A stretch of 64,000 nt of DNA from an uncultured Candidatus Melainabacteria bacterium. GTDB taxonomy: Bacteria > Cyanobacteriota > Vampirovibrionia > Gastranaerophilales > Gastranaerophilaceae. Positions within the stretch are counted from its first letter, which is position 1; every line of letters starts with the position of its first letter. Below the pieces are notes generated by a model. That model searched no databases. It was not told the DNA's origin and was given only the letters and a program-made list of their open reading frames with translations. A program made the translations under genes and the position numbers. The stretch covers positions 1-64,000 of the forward strand of contig CANOTP010000004.1 of the NCBI GenBank assembly GCA_947570135.1, in the 5' to 3' direction. Positions 55,071 through 63,418 of the stretch are shown here, one piece after another.

Positions 55071-55700
55071 TTAAAATTTGAACGGATAATCGTCTTTAAA
55101 TTCCCACTGATCGTTTTGCAAAATTTTTGTACACCACTCAGGATCGGATTTACATTTAGTAATCATTTGGGCTCTTGTAGTTCCTGCTGCGGTTTGCCCT
55201 GAGCCGTATGTTCCGAAAAATATTTGATCGTTTCCAAAATGACCTCTTCTGTTAGCTTCGCTAAAACAATATAAAAATCTTTGTCTGTCATAGCCCTGCC
55301 TGTTAGGACCTTTATCTCCGTTTATGTCATAATCAACATCTAAACAAGTTCCGCCTTCTGCACCTGACCAAAAGGTCATAAGTTTCGAGCCGTCTTTAAA
55401 GTAAACCTGACTGTTTCTTATAAATTGGTGTCCCATATACGGATCAACATTTTCCATATACCAATCATAACCTTTGCCTTGAGCAGGTAAAACCATATAT
55501 CTGAACGAACCTTTATCAAGTTCCATATCAAGAACGGCGTTATTCATTTTACTGTAGAAGTTTTTAAGCTTTGCGGTGTATTCTTTTTTTACTCTGCTAT
55601 AGTGAAGAGTTGGGATTGTCATAGCTGCAACAACGCCGACAATTGTCATTGTGAGCAACACCTCCGCCAGTGTAAACCCTGCTTTATTCTTTTTTATCAT
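55071..55700 (-). CDS. Type IV prepilin-like / pseudopilin protein (unpaired)
   Basis: A 209-residue prepilin-like protein starting MIKKNKAGFTLAEVLLTM, with Gly/Phe cleavage site and Glu5. The motif appears as VDYDINGDKGPNRQGYD near residue 125, and a C-terminal cysteine pair as CKSDPEWC. It is the most divergent of the set and has neither HTH partner nor poly-G tract. It is transcribed away from cysK. Confidence 0.88.
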   Translation of the reverse strand: MIKKNKAGFTLAEVLLTMTIVGVVAAMTIPTLHYSRVKKEYTAKLKNFYSKMNNAVLDMELDKGSFRYMVLPAQGKGYDWYMENVDPYMGHQFIRNSQVYFKDGSKLMTFWSGAEGGTCLDVDYDINGDKGPNRQGYDRQRFLYCFSEANRRGHFGNDQIFFGTYGSGQTAAGTTRAQMITKCKSDPEWCTKILQNDQWEFKDDYPFKF

Positions 55701-55801: not shown

Positions 55802-56725
55802 ATGAATATTGCAGATAATTTAACACAGTTAGTTGGGAATACTCCTATGGTAAAGTTGAATCGTTTAAATACGGGCAAGGCGAAAGTTTACTTAAAGTTA
55901 GAGTATTTTAACCCTGCAAATTCGATAAAAGACCGTGCGGCGCTTCAAATGATACTTGATGCAGAAGCTGACGGACGGATTAAACCTGATACGGTAATTA
56001 TTGAGCCGACAAGCGGAAATACGGGGATAGGTTTAGCAATGGTTTGTGCGATTCGGGGTTACAGGTTAATTCTTACGATGCCTGAATCTATGAGTTTAGA
56101 GCGAAGGATGTTATTATCTGCGTACGGTGCCGAACTTGTATTAATACCTGCAACAGATGGTATGAAAGGTGCTGTAAATAAGGCTGTTGAACTAAGTAAA
56201 CAGTATGAAAACTCCTTCATCCCTTCCCAGTTTGACAATCCGTCAAATCCTAAGGCGCATGTATTAACAACATCAGAAGAAATCTGGAAAGATACAGACG
56301 GAAATGTTGATATTTTGGTCGCAGGAGTCGGAACAGGCGGAACGCTGTCAGGTATTGCAAAGAACTTAAAGTCAAAAAATCCTAAGCTGAAAGTTGTTGC
56401 TGTTGAACCTTTTACCTCTCAGGTTTTAGCGGGAAAAGATGCAGGAGCACATAAAATTCAGGGAATAGGAGCTAATTTTGTACCGAAAAACTATGATTCG
56501 TCACTTGTTGATGAAATAATTCCTGTAAAAAACGAAGATGCGATTGAAATGACAAAACTTCTGCCTAAAAACGAAGGGATTTTATCGGGGATTTCAGGGG
56601 GTGCAAATGTTTGGGCTGCCGTTGAACTTTCAAAACGCCCTGAAAATAAAGGTAAACGTATTGTAACCGTTATTCCTGATTGCGGCGACCATTATTTAAG
56701 TTGCGGAATATTTGGGGAGGGTTAG
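55802..56725 (+). CDS. cysK: Cysteine synthase A (O-acetylserine sulfhydrylase)
   Basis: A 307-residue PLP enzyme making cysteine from O-acetylserine and sulfide. LVGNTPMVKLNRL is near residue 10, the PLP lysine in NSIKDRAA near 40, PTSGNTGIGLA near 67 and the phosphate loop GVGTGGTLSG near 172. Length is typical. ATG at 55802 is preferred to an upstream TTG at 55787. The end GDHYLS is CysK-like; the last residues differ from the standard tail that binds SAT. Confidence 0.94.
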   Translation: MNIADNLTQLVGNTPMVKLNRLNTGKAKVYLKLEYFNPANSIKDRAALQMILDAEADGRIKPDTVIIEPTSGNTGIGLAMVCAIRGYRLILTMPESMSLERRMLLSAYGAELVLIPATDGMKGAVNKAVELSKQYENSFIPSQFDNPSNPKAHVLTTSEEIWKDTDGNVDILVAGVGTGGTLSGIAKNLKSKNPKLKVVAVEPFTSQVLAGKDAGAHKIQGIGANFVPKNYDSSLVDEIIPVKNEDAIEMTKLLPKNEGILSGISGGANVWAAVELSKRPENKGKRIVTVIPDCGDHYLSCGIFGEG

Positions 56726-56727
56726 CC

Positions 56728-57315
56728 TTGCTGTGCGTATTTCAGGGAACATTTAATCCTATACACAACGCTCATATTCGAGTCGGTGAGTTTGTTTTGA
56801 ACACTTATAATCCCGATAAGTTGATTTTTATACCTGCCGCGAATCCGCCGCATAAAATTTCTGACCCTAAATATGCCAAACACCGTTATAATATGGTTGA
56901 GCTTGCCGTTAAAGATTATGAAGGATTTTCGGTTTCAGATATCGAATATAGGCGCGAGGGTAAGTCTTATACTTATTTAACGATATGTGAGCTTCGTAAG
57001 CTCTACAACATAAAAGAGCGGATATTATTTATCATTGGAACTGATGCGTTTGAAAAAATCGAATCCTGGTATGAGTTTGACAAACTTAAGGATTTAGTTA
57101 AATTTATCGTTTTTGTAAGGGAGGACAATTTTAATCCTTCACGTTATGATTATTTAAAATCTCGCGGAGTTGTATTTGAATTTCAGCCGCTTTCGTTTGA
57201 AGATGTTTCCTCAACCGAATTAAGGCAAAAAATCAAAAATAATGAAGATATAAGTTTATACGTAAATAAAAAAGTCGAGGATTATATTAAGGAAAATGGA
57301 TTATACAAAGATTAG
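56728..57315 (+). CDS. nadD: Nicotinate-nucleotide adenylyltransferase
   Basis: A 195-residue NadD joining nicotinate mononucleotide and ATP into deamido-NAD. The nucleotidyltransferase motif GTFNPIHNAHIRVG comes a few residues from the start, IPAANPPHK near 37, IGTDAFEKIESW near 103 and SSTELRQKIKNNEDISLYV near 160 (ISSTxIR). The likely start is TTG at 56728, placed seven bases after GGGGAGGG and two bases after the cysK stop; no ATG fits. It overlaps yqeK by 20 bases. Confidence 0.9.
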   Translation: MLCVFQGTFNPIHNAHIRVGEFVLNTYNPDKLIFIPAANPPHKISDPKYAKHRYNMVELAVKDYEGFSVSDIEYRREGKSYTYLTICELRKLYNIKERILFIIGTDAFEKIESWYEFDKLKDLVKFIVFVREDNFNPSRYDYLKSRGVVFEFQPLSFEDVSSTELRQKIKNNEDISLYVNKKVEDYIKENGLYKD

Positions 57316-57877
57316 TGAAAAAGATTTGTTAAATTGGCTTAAGCAAAACTTGTGCGAAGAACGCTACGAGCATTCAATCGGCACGGCTGAATGTGCAAAA
57401 GAGTTAGCTCAGCGTTTCCGAGTTAACCCTGAAAAGGCTTATATTGCAGGGTTGTTACATGATTGCGCCAAGTGTTTTTCTAACGAGAAATTAATGTCGA
57501 TAATTGATGAGAATTTGACAATAGAAGAAGCTGAAAAGTCTAACCCGAAAACACTGCATGCGCCAGTCAGCGCGTATATTGCAAAAACAGAGTTCGGGGT
57601 AGAAGATGAGGAGATTTTGTCTGCTATCAGGTGGCATACTTTAGGTAAGTTAAATATGAGTGATTTTGAAAAAATTATATTCCTTGCTGATAAAATAGAG
57701 CCGCGAACCCGTGAAAAATGCCATTGTGAGCCGATAAAAGCTCGTCTGGCAGATGAAAACGGACTAAATTCCGCGATGCTTCAGTGTTACAGGCAGACAA
57801 TAAAAAGCTTAATCGACAGGGATTTGAAAATTTGTCCTGCAACAGTCGATATTTACAATTACCTGCAAGGATGTTAA
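57296..57877 (+). CDS. yqeK: YqeK-type HD phosphohydrolase (Ap4A hydrolase)
   Basis: A 193-residue HD-domain protein. Metal ligands lie in RYEHSIGTAECA (His near residue 24), GLLHDCAKCF (HD near 56), HAPVSAYIAK and FLADKIEPRTR. YqeK enzymes hydrolyse diadenosine tetraphosphate symmetrically. nadD-yqeK is a common pair. The usual next gene, rsfS, is absent here. AAGGA precedes ATG inside nadD. Confidence 0.92.
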   Translation: MDYTKISEKDLLNWLKQNLCEERYEHSIGTAECAKELAQRFRVNPEKAYIAGLLHDCAKCFSNEKLMSIIDENLTIEEAEKSNPKTLHAPVSAYIAKTEFGVEDEEILSAIRWHTLGKLNMSDFEKIIFLADKIEPRTREKCHCEPIKARLADENGLNSAMLQCYRQTIKSLIDRDLKICPATVDIYNYLQGC

Positions 57878-57948: not shown

Positions 57949-59880
57949 ATGAAAATACTTGAGATTAAGAATAACCTGGTAAAGCTGGCGTATACAGAAT
58001 CGGAAGTTCCCGTTCTGGGCAGATTTATTGTTCTTGCAACCGATGTTAAATCATACGTGGCTCAGTTTGTGAACTTAAAATCCGATACAGTAAACAGTTA
58101 CGCTATTGCAAGGTTGTTATTCACCTTTACGCCTGACGGGGTTGTCGATAACTATGACGGTTCAATTCCTGATGCTAACTCTCAGGTTTCATTCCTGCCA
58201 TCATCAGAATTATTAAACCTTTTACCTGTTGAAAATGCCATACAAATGGGTAATCTTTCTCAGCAGGATGAAATGCTTAATATTGATGTATCTGTTTTTG
58301 AACGTAATTTTACGGTTTTTGTCGAAAAAGATGCCAATAAAACAACTTTTATTTCAAACTGTGTAAGACAATTATTCAGAATGAAAGAAAAATGTGTTAT
58401 AGCTGATACCTGTAACCTGTTTGAGGATTACCCGAAACTTGTGATTTCGCGAGATTTTAAGTTACCTTTAAATGCTCAAATGATGAATTATATTTTTGAA
58501 TACGATTTGGCGGAAGTTGATGCCTCAACAAAGGCGATTATTCAAGATATTTTTTACGAGGTTCAGCAGTATATCAAAACTCTTGAGGGGCAATTCTTAC
58601 CGATAGAAAAGTTTGTTGATGTTGTCACAGGTCAGTATAAATCTACTCAAATGCCTGAATTGGCACTTTTGAAAAACAAACTCTTGAAATATCGTGATGC
58701 GGGAATTTTTGCGGACACAAAAGAAGATATTGACGCACTGAGAGAAAAACTTGATGCTAAAAATTGTATAATTGTTGATTTAAAAGATATAAATGAAGCT
58801 TTGCAAAAAGAAGTTTTATCATACCTTCACGCGATATTAGAAACTTTTGATAAATATGTTTACTTCTTTGCAACTTTAACTGATGATAATTCAGACAAAA
58901 AACTTTTAAATCAATTCATAAACCATAATCACGTCTTTACGACATTACTTGCAAGCAGTAATTATAAATACGCATCGGAATTAAAAGGTCATGCTCAGAA
59001 TATGATGCTTTTTGCGCCGCAATCGGTTAATAACGATTTCAGCGCTTATAATACTTTCTTATCTAAGTTGAATCCTGATGAATGTATTGTTGAAGGTAAG
59101 TTAACTCAAGGTATTCCGTTTATTATTGATATGGAAGACTTGGATGTTGATTTGACAAAAGATGATGTACTGGGTGAACGTGTTCAGTTTATGCCTGTAA
59201 CAGAAGATGTAAGACTTGTCAGAACAGATGATTTCGGGACTCAAACCTTTGTAGATGAAGAACCGGAACAGGAAATTGAGCAGGCGCAAGAATTTGTCGC
59301 ACCTGTTGTAGTTGAGCCTGAGCCTGAAATAACGGTTGAAGAAGAACCGCTTGTCGAAGAACCGATTATAGAAGAGACTGTTGTTGCCGTTCAAAAGCCT
59401 GAAATCATAGAGCCTGTTTCAAATATTATGGAAGAAATGGAAGAGTCTTTTGAAACTGTGCATGATTTTGAAGAGTTTGCAGCTGAACCTGAAATAACAG
59501 AAGACTCAGAAGAAGAAATACTTCCGCTTGAAGATGATTTGGGTTTGGAAGAAGAAACTTTAACCGATGAAGACTTAAATTTCATTGAAGAAACCCAACC
59601 TATAGCAGATGATGTTGATGATTTCGGAGAATACGAAGAATCTCCGTATATTGATGAACAGCCGCCTGTTGTGCCAGTTTATCCTGCGGATGAAGAGTCT
59701 GATTTGGAATCAATCGGTGAATTTTCGCAAGGTGACAGTGTTACACACCCTCGTTACGGCAGAGGCGTGATTGAAAAAATCATAAAATACGGAAACAAAA
59801 CTCTTTGTTCAATATCGTTTGAAAATGTCGGACGAAGATTGTTAGATCCGACAATTTCCGAACTTACAAAACTTGGCTAA
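57949..59880 (+). CDS. Degenerate HerA-like ATPase with acidic linker and C-terminal Tudor-like domain
   Basis: A 643-residue protein that I do not know as a named family. The N-terminus (about 1-120) resembles the HerA barrel. FVEKDANKTTFISNCVRQLF (about 124-143) stands where HerA-type ATPases have a P-loop, but the glycines are missing; CVIADTCNLFEDY and CIIVDLKDINEA resemble later strands. Residues about 430-590 are a very acidic, Pro/Val-rich linker. The last 50 residues (GDSVTHPRYGRGVIEKII...SFENVGRRLL) match the Tudor-like tail of UvrD/PcrA helicases. ATP hydrolysis is doubtful. It may dock on RNA polymerase or DNA machinery. Confidence 0.6.
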   Translation: MKILEIKNNLVKLAYTESEVPVLGRFIVLATDVKSYVAQFVNLKSDTVNSYAIARLLFTFTPDGVVDNYDGSIPDANSQVSFLPSSELLNLLPVENAIQMGNLSQQDEMLNIDVSVFERNFTVFVEKDANKTTFISNCVRQLFRMKEKCVIADTCNLFEDYPKLVISRDFKLPLNAQMMNYIFEYDLAEVDASTKAIIQDIFYEVQQYIKTLEGQFLPIEKFVDVVTGQYKSTQMPELALLKNKLLKYRDAGIFADTKEDIDALREKLDAKNCIIVDLKDINEALQKEVLSYLHAILETFDKYVYFFATLTDDNSDKKLLNQFINHNHVFTTLLASSNYKYASELKGHAQNMMLFAPQSVNNDFSAYNTFLSKLNPDECIVEGKLTQGIPFIIDMEDLDVDLTKDDVLGERVQFMPVTEDVRLVRTDDFGTQTFVDEEPEQEIEQAQEFVAPVVVEPEPEITVEEEPLVEEPIIEETVVAVQKPEIIEPVSNIMEEMEESFETVHDFEEFAAEPEITEDSEEEILPLEDDLGLEEETLTDEDLNFIEETQPIADDVDDFGEYEESPYIDEQPPVVPVYPADEESDLESIGEFSQGDSVTHPRYGRGVIEKIIKYGNKTLCSISFENVGRRLLDPTISELTKLG

Positions 59881-62416: not shown

Positions 62417-63418
62417 ATGTATTTTGGGATTACTAATGTTAAATTGGCGCAAGCAGAGAAAGTGAATGGAAATCCGTTTGCAACAGCGCCTGCAAAAACC
62501 GACAATGTTAATATGTGGGATAAATTTAAAGCCGAAAATGCTCAAGATGTGGAAAAAATGAGTACGGTTGATGCTATGGCAAAACTTAATGCCGTAAATA
62601 AACCGCAAGATGCTAAAAAAGTTAAAGCTATGGAAAAAATGTCAAAACTTTCTAAAGCTATGCAAGATAAGAATTTTTTGAATTTAACTCAAAAACATTT
62701 TGATGCGTTTAAGTTGTTGGAGGCAAATCCTGCATTACGCGACTTAGCTGATACATTGGATGAAAAATTAATTAGTATTACCGATCAAAACATATATTTT
62801 ATACAAAAACTTGAACTTTCATCAATGCAAGATTTGTCTGCCGATGAAATCAATAAAATCTGTAAAGATATTACAAATGCTGCAAAACAACTTGAAAAAG
62901 ACGCTCAAAAAATTAGAGCAGGTATCTTAAAAGCAGGCGCATACTCAGAAGCCATGATGAAACTTGATGATCCTGAGAAAAAAGGCAAGTATGAAAAACT
63001 GGCAACCGAAACAGTTCAAAATCTTCCTGACGCATTCAAAAATAAGGAAGAAGCTGCTGAAGTTCAGGATAAGTTATCAGAATTAAGCGGTGAAGAAGAA
63101 ACAGATTTAGAAGAAGATTTTCAAGAAGAACCTGTTGAAGATACAGAATTAGGCAAAGTCGGAGATTTCTTAAGTCCGTTTATATATGATGAAGACGGTA
63201 CTCTTCTTGTCGAAAATTTAGAACAAGGGGCTTTCGATGCTGATACTGATGCTAAAGAAGAAGCTAAAGCTGAAAAAGAAGCCGATAAAGAACTTGGTAA
63301 AATTCGTGATGAATATAAAAAAGATTTAAATGAACAGAAAGAAAAAACAGGTAAAGAGCCAGAACCGATTAAAGACGAGAAAGGTCGAATTCTAAAATCT
63401 TTGCTTGGCGAAGAATAA
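62417..63418 (+). CDS. Unknown helical, charged protein
   Basis: A 333-residue protein of no known family. It is mostly helical and charged: a Lys/Ala/Met-rich part (about 40-90), a central helical domain (90-195), a very acidic stretch (about 225-245, LSGEEETDLEEDFQEE) and a Lys/Glu coiled-coil end (about 285-333). There is no signal peptide or membrane helix; the N-terminus MYFGITNVKLAQ is slightly hydrophobic. AAAACGGGGA precedes ATG. Confidence 0.7.
   Translation: MYFGITNVKLAQAEKVNGNPFATAPAKTDNVNMWDKFKAENAQDVEKMSTVDAMAKLNAVNKPQDAKKVKAMEKMSKLSKAMQDKNFLNLTQKHFDAFKLLEANPALRDLADTLDEKLISITDQNIYFIQKLELSSMQDLSADEINKICKDITNAAKQLEKDAQKIRAGILKAGAYSEAMMKLDDPEKKGKYEKLATETVQNLPDAFKNKEEAAEVQDKLSELSGEEETDLEEDFQEEPVEDTELGKVGDFLSPFIYDEDGTLLVENLEQGAFDADTDAKEEAKAEKEADKELGKIRDEYKKDLNEQKEKTGKEPEPIKDEKGRILKSLLGEE

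Follow-up and report, generated by a model that had tools for sequence, protein, structure and literature searches.

What does a bacterium gain from a protein which has the body of the DNA translocase HerA without its ATP-binding site, and which ends in the Tudor domain of the helicases PcrA and UvrD? The question is raised by a gene in the window analysed here, a stretch of 64,000 nucleotides (contig CANOTP010000004.1 of assembly GCA_947570135.1) from an uncultured member of the order Gastranaerophilales (class Vampirovibrionia, phylum Cyanobacteriota), whose 1.9 Mb genome is held in 16 contigs and is 99.9% complete. The open reading frame has exactly the limits given in Table 1, and a ribosome-binding-like stretch, GAGAGGG, is found 5′ of its ATG. 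The protein, referred to here as pseudo-HerA, belongs to no family in Pfam, NCBIfam or PADLOC, and PADLOC returned no defence-system match for it. An initial annotation of the locus knew of no described protein with this domain order, which fits our searches of the open-access literature: no title or abstract start describes a pseudo-HerA/Tudor protein. HerA and Tudor are treated as separate proteins of defence systems in the accessible part of PMC12839542.

Table 1. Features of the pseudo-HerA locus, in positions of the window
Feature	Position	Strand	Basis
NadD-like nucleotidyltransferase, 5′ of YqeK	56680..57315	+	Pfam
YqeK-like HD protein, directly 5′ of the pseudo-HerA gene	57296..57877	+	Pfam
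Whole gene, HerA-fold pseudo-ATPase with PcrA/UvrD-type Tudor tail	57949..59880	+	643 aa
HAS-barrel-like beta domain, residues 1-90 (approximate)	57949..58218	+	AF2 strands 2-83; aligns from residue 1 with HerA chains
Former Walker A site, VEKDANKTT, no glycine, residues 125-133	58321..58347	+	profile alignment to HerA
D153, end of second core strand, conserved in 94/95	58405..58407	+	equivalent to drHerA D220 (PMC9960219)
Helical insert, residues 176-270, like the HerA helix-bundle domain	58474..58758	+	AF2 model; PMC9960219
Acidic, fast-changing linker, residues 401-590	59149..59718	+	67 D/E versus 5 K/R in 190 residues
PcrA/UvrD-type Tudor domain, residues 591-643	59719..59877	+	profile, fold, interface residues

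The HerA-fold body and its former ATP-binding site

The initial annotation had read HerA-like strand patterns in the N-terminal half and proposed that the two ends of the protein be examined separately by structure prediction and profile search. Treated in this way, the N-terminus falls in the HerA fold and the tail in the UvrD group. The AF2 model of the body (residues 1-405; mean pLDDT 91.4, pTM 0.88) has HerA 4d2i as its top Foldseek match (E 1.3e-17), and the best 50 matches are all HerA chains or complexes, some of them titled 'bacterial protein' or 'anti-phage defense complex'. With VIA-align, the same model (1-405) superposes on Sulfolobus HerA 4d2i with Z 26.1 and rmsd 4.1 over 382 aligned residues, and the VirB4, TrwB and FtsK motors appear in lower rows. 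HerA is also reached from sequence alone, a profile built from alignment A1 finding 4d2i at E 5e-6. A1 comprises 95 sequences, including seven members of the class family f9 at 12-16% identity; loci L050, L059 and L063, which are partial or low-scoring, and ten loci duplicating others or the window were left out. The body is thus predicted, with near certainty, to be a complete HerA fold composed of a HAS-barrel, a RecA core and a helical insert.

Library models respond unevenly to this fold. The body of the window protein has no match in a Pfam scan, PF01935 included, and PF01935 matches 27 of the 95 N-terminal members at E<=1. Among ten hand-picked members, two score above its cut-off (35.1 and 38.1 bits), one lies exactly at it (23.2), one falls below it and six have no match at E<=0.01. 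A SepF identity was also considered, PF04472 matching 21 of the 95 N-terminal members at E<=1 (best E 1.7e-5). It was dropped: in the window protein the match is confined to residues 259-294, and the overall fold is that of HerA.

The active site was examined by profile alignment. The ATGSGKS of HerA corresponds to EKDANKT at residues 126-132, and the Walker A motif GxxxxGK[ST] is present at this loop in none of the 95 A1 homologues; K131 occurs in 42 of them and a glycine at position 125 in eight. The Walker B pair of Deinococcus HerA is D487/E488 (PMC9960219), and no counterpart of this acidic pair was found at strand 304-309 in the order. D153, which the alignment places at drHerA D220, is kept in all A1 members except one. 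The missing P-loop glycines are therefore confirmed and the non-catalytic character proposed at the outset is supported, Walker A and Walker B being lost, and the alignments make it nearly certain that the protein is a pseudoenzyme of the HerA family.

Fourteen Tudor-tail ORFs from 17 distant loci (that of L080 being a fragment) were aligned for a reading of the active site in deep relatives. In several, the Walker B place is taken by a hydrophobic strand with PE at its end, and one (L072 of genome G297, outside A1) retains GTCVAGKQ at the Walker A place. Decay being partial among these distant ORFs, the active site appears to have been lost gradually and long ago. The GTCVAGKQ sequence itself is a possible intermediate on the way to losing ATP binding.

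The acidic linker and the Tudor tail

The long acidic linker of the first description is present (Table 1), and so is the module to which it had assigned the last 50 residues or so, the Tudor-like domain of UvrD/PcrA. Scanned alone, the last ~52 residues match PcrA_UvrD_tudor (PF21196) with E 0.00029 and 21.1 bits, against a cut-off of 23.9 which is exceeded by six of 12 family proteins from 13 genomes (33.7 and 32.5 bits, for example). A profile of 22 family tails (A3) run against the PDB has UvrD and PcrA C-terminal domains as its top matches (7egs 1.2e-8, 9dqs 1.6e-8, 6yi2 2.4e-8 and 4c2t 4.9e-7; 5dma 0.0012), and matches CarD-type chains at E 0.019 (2lqk) and 0.12 (CarD). PF02559 is found in 17 of the 22 tails. 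The AF2 model of the tail (pLDDT 92.3) has a five-stranded Tudor fold whose four best VIA rows are UvrD/PcrA domains: 7egs (Z 9.4), 5dma (PcrA, 8.6), 9dqs (8.6) and 7egt (8.3; rmsd 1.1 over 47). These are followed by DSIF at 7.7, within 1 of the fourth row, and CarD at 7.4. Since such Z values are near the level of common arrangements, the claim for the tail rests on the profile and on the interface residues.

Four residues of PcrA, H681, W684, K712 and L714, have been tested for RNA polymerase binding (PMC5397179). Their counterparts in the window protein are H600, Y603, R630 and L632, two of the four being conservative replacements (Trp to Tyr and Lys to Arg). Across 116 family tails, the place of H681 is occupied by His in 108, that of W684 by Tyr in 107 or Phe in 6, that of K712 by Arg in 109 or Lys in 6, and that of L714 by Leu in 109. 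The Tudor arm is likely to be a protein-docking module, and its sequence may derive from a copy of the PcrA tail of the same lineage.

The PcrA of the window genome (G000:C3:103154-103297, L168) keeps a Tudor tail of its own, in which Met replaces the Trp. More generally, Met or Phe stands at the place of the tested tryptophan in PcrA tails of the lineage (L168, L161, L163 and L181), and a G-K-K/R-x-x-D stretch is carried by both the PcrA and the pseudo-HerA tails.

Distribution, selection and gene neighbourhood

A search of the order with the window protein gave matches at E<=0.01 in 282 of 286 genomes, including two weak ones (G177 and G255, E 0.004-0.006); G047, G171, G214 and G228 have none at this threshold. 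The search of the class covered 117 genomes, 79 of them outside the order. Families f9, f14 and f15 account for 18 of the 79, and 17 of these 18 carry a Tudor-tail ORF distinct from the PcrA-like one; the other 61 class genomes outside the order gave one match or none in the Tudor-tail search. A profile of 31 N-termini from the order was then run over the 121 ORFs of the 17 f9, f14 and f15 loci. The 12 ORFs at the top of its ranking all bear a Tudor tail, four of them, all from f9, at E<=0.002 and eight at E 0.014-0.29; the Tudor-tail ORFs of L068, L072, L073, L077 and L080 were not prominent. In view of these E-values, the presence of the pseudo-HerA body is established, at the level of sequence, in f9 and is probable in f14 and f15. 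The gene is hence near-universal in the order and present in one more family of the class, and probably in two further ones. In the f15 loci L067, L068 and L069 the Tudor-tail ORFs are open frames of 1362-2158 aa, the extra length of L067 being an acidic, Pro-rich linker.

At the level of the phylum, the N-terminal profile gave matches at E<=0.001 in 130 of 292 genomes, all of which belong to families f1 or f6 of the order. No match outside f1 and f6 was obtained at this cut-off, Cyanobacteria proper included; distant members of the class score below the cut-off, so that a non-match elsewhere is a weak guide. A tblastn search of plasmids and phages gave no match.

The gene is under purifying selection. 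In the comparison with the nearest relative, dN/dS is 0.062 for the body (residues 1-400), 0.162 for the linker and 0.010 for the tail. Against four remoter relatives, for which dS is high or saturated, the values are 0.09-0.19 for the body (three computable values), 0.28-0.44 for the linker and 0.04-0.09 for the tail (three computable values).

In the window, the NadD and YqeK genes share the strand of the pseudo-HerA gene, and AroH (identified by Pfam), Fmt and Def (named from their sequences) lie on the opposite strand, facing it. The order NadD-YqeK-pseudo-HerA is preserved in near relatives, and YqeK is found 5′ of the gene in all of L001-L038, some species being present twice. Among the listed loci of L039-L081 this pairing was not seen, and pseudo-HerA adjoins other genes there. 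A YifB/ComM-like ATPase is close by in six loci of the order (families f3, f4 and f7; one locus tested, above the TIGR00368 cut-off). The 17 deep loci include an isoleucyl-tRNA synthetase-like ORF (named from sequence) in 11 cases and a RarA-like ATPase near the gene in ten (two tested, with NCBIfam matches below their cut-offs); the RarA-like gene lies next to pseudo-HerA, in divergent orientation, in the five f9 loci shown. In L117, UvrB lies downstream of the pseudo-HerA gene with one gene between. All of these neighbours are taken as hints only.

Two further ORFs of the window recur near relatives of the gene. That at 55071-55700 (-) starts with a type IV pilin-like leader, GFTLAEVLLTM, and ORFs resembling it occur near the pseudo-HerA gene in some relatives. 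The other, at 62417-63418 (+), encodes 333 aa rich in charged residues and lies beside the same block in L031.

Candidate partners and proposed role

With the gene, its fold, the loss of Walker A and B, the Tudor fold, the docking residues, conservation and selection established by sequence and prediction, its role turns on the partner which the tail would hold. The motif bound by the Tudor domain of PcrA lies in an insert of the RNA polymerase beta subunit that is lineage-specific; searched as [VIL]DxxTGE[VIL][VILT], this motif also occurs in UvrB (PMC8318588). Thirty RpoB proteins were read, from 43 class genomes with a match. The exact motif is present in none of the 30, the Bacillus PcrA docking insert was found in none, and all are short between the GRYK and DDID marks. 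We take the Bacillus insert to lie between these two marks; in the window genome the rpoB profile match breaks between positions 214 and 294, in agreement with this place. The same RpoB carries VNRDSGEIK, a candidate alternative site on beta.

Thirty UvrB proteins were also read, from 44 genomes with a match, and the segment is shown for 29 of them. Nine of the 30 have the exact motif. The UvrB proteins read from nine genomes of the order, all of the window's family, have IDN[VIL][TS]GEI[IL], seven exactly matching the docking motif and two carrying Ser for Thr, among them the window genome's own IDNVSGEII. Because of this Ser, UvrB is absent from an exact-motif scan of the window genome, whose three matches are by sequence MnmE and two acyl-CoA synthetases (none in the reversed-sequence control of the same genome). 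Elsewhere, the motif is exact in one of five segments from f9, which has pseudo-HerA (a sixth was not readable), and in none of one from f14, and there are near-matches in UvrB of f8 and f12, where pseudo-HerA was not seen. The use of the motif as specific proof was consequently dropped, given these near-matches and the frequent absence of the exact motif from distant pseudo-HerA families. By their titles, PDB entry 7egt holds the C-terminal domain of T. thermophilus UvrD with the N-terminal domain of UvrB, and 7egs pairs a UvrD C-terminal domain with the polymerase lobe of E. coli. UvrB is a putative partner and a better candidate than RNA polymerase beta, the best that we can name.

We favour, with a probability of roughly 0.4, a non-catalytic HerA-fold scaffold that docks on UvrB or a similar protein, perhaps in competition with PcrA. 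HerA-family bodies assemble into rings, and for this reason a HAS-barrel, RecA-core and helix-bundle body devoid of canonical ATP binding or hydrolysis can be read as a passive scaffold, DNA-associated or ring-shaped. The Tudor arm, on its long and flexible acidic linker, would capture partners that carry the helicase interaction motif, UvrB being the most likely, so that pseudo-HerA would bring together or retain proteins of nucleotide excision repair or, alternatively, compete with PcrA for them. The DNA ATPases among its neighbours in other families (RarA-like in 10/17 deep loci, YifB/ComM-like in six loci of the order) are in keeping with this role. Several observations nevertheless count against it. 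The motif lacks specificity, as f8 and f12 illustrate, and is often inexact in f9 and f14; a PcrA with its own Tudor tail is encoded in the same genome; the E. coli polymerase lobe is a further binding partner of the UvrD C-terminal domain (7egs); the neighbours in the group of the window are NadD and YqeK rather than repair genes; and the C-terminus of E. coli UvrD, though it binds UvrB, is dispensable for excision repair in vitro (PMC2997466). A bolder form of the proposal seems unlikely to us: a dead HerA ring, passive and encircling DNA, would be a core, order-wide repair hub whose up to six Tudor arms on acidic tethers hold UvrB and other motif-bearing partners, the former motor having become a multivalent loading platform that rivals PcrA.

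The adaptor of the initial annotation would instead tether the HerA body to RNA polymerase through beta. Its non-catalytic part is supported, and the tail does belong to the polymerase-binding group of PcrA/UvrD, with the four interface positions kept (PMC5397179) and, as its nearest VIA structure, the UvrD domain on the E. coli polymerase lobe (7egs, Z 9.4). The link to beta is nevertheless weakened: the PcrA Tudor sits on a lineage-specific insert (PMC8318588), whose place is short in 30/30 RpoB, with the exact motif in 0/30. Beta had been taken first as the partner and was ranked lower with the insert and motif missing, and we now consider this tether doubtful. An operon-based reading makes pseudo-HerA a DNA-unrelated scaffold working with NadD and YqeK in NAD and dinucleotide metabolism, as the conserved order in near relatives might suggest; the protein persists in the listed loci of L039-L081, where that pairing was not seen, and there is little to recommend this role.

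Two further explanations would bring ATP back into the picture. A divergent ATPase, active or nucleotide-sensing, could use a rebuilt site formed by D153 together with K131/T132 in sequences near the window's. The near-invariance of D153, the GTCVAGKQ of L072 and the several deep strands ending in PE speak for it; the complete absence of GxxxxGK[ST] from A1, the presence of K131 in fewer than half of its members (42/95) and the lack of a Walker B acidic pair in the order speak against it, and we regard it as quite improbable. Since HerA proteins form hexamers (PMC9960219), pseudo-HerA might also be the inactive subunit of a ring shared with an active HerA-type ATPase. It is not obviously so, because its own 99.9% complete genome has no PF01935 protein above the cut-off, whereas all 14 controls score above it, and a mixed ring appears to us the least probable of these arrangements.

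For a near-universal gene of the order, which is subject to purifying selection and belongs to none of the families in the searched libraries, the favoured scaffold reading would mean that a family of DNA translocases has given rise to a non-motor adaptor. The Tudor module which links helicases to nucleotide excision repair would then have another carrier in addition to PcrA/UvrD, and, as the RNA polymerase of this lineage is without the Bacillus docking insert, the purpose of the module is directly testable here.

Among known systems, the EccC5 DUF is, like pseudo-HerA, a degenerate relative of a P-loop motor. It is part of a secretion ATPase for which the accessible part of the source mentions no Tudor tail, whereas the window protein ends in one. 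CarD and the Mfd RNA polymerase interaction domain have a Tudor-like fold in common with this tail (VIA Z 7.4 to CarD), with a profile match to the family tails (E 0.019-0.12) weaker than that of the UvrD group (1.2e-8). The hexameric translocase HerA (4d2i; Deinococcus 7wrw and 7f6d) shares its three-part body fold with the window protein and, like it, has an acidic residue ending the second core strand (D220 and D153, respectively). HerA possesses both Walker A and the Walker B pair, however, while the window protein has neither and adds the long acidic linker and the Tudor tail. The Tudor domains of PcrA and UvrD (5dma, 7egs, 7egt and 9dqs) resemble that tail in fold, profile and four interface positions, the tail having in addition a conserved LLDP stretch; in PcrA and UvrD the domain sits on an SF1 helicase, and here it sits on a HerA-fold pseudo-ATPase body.
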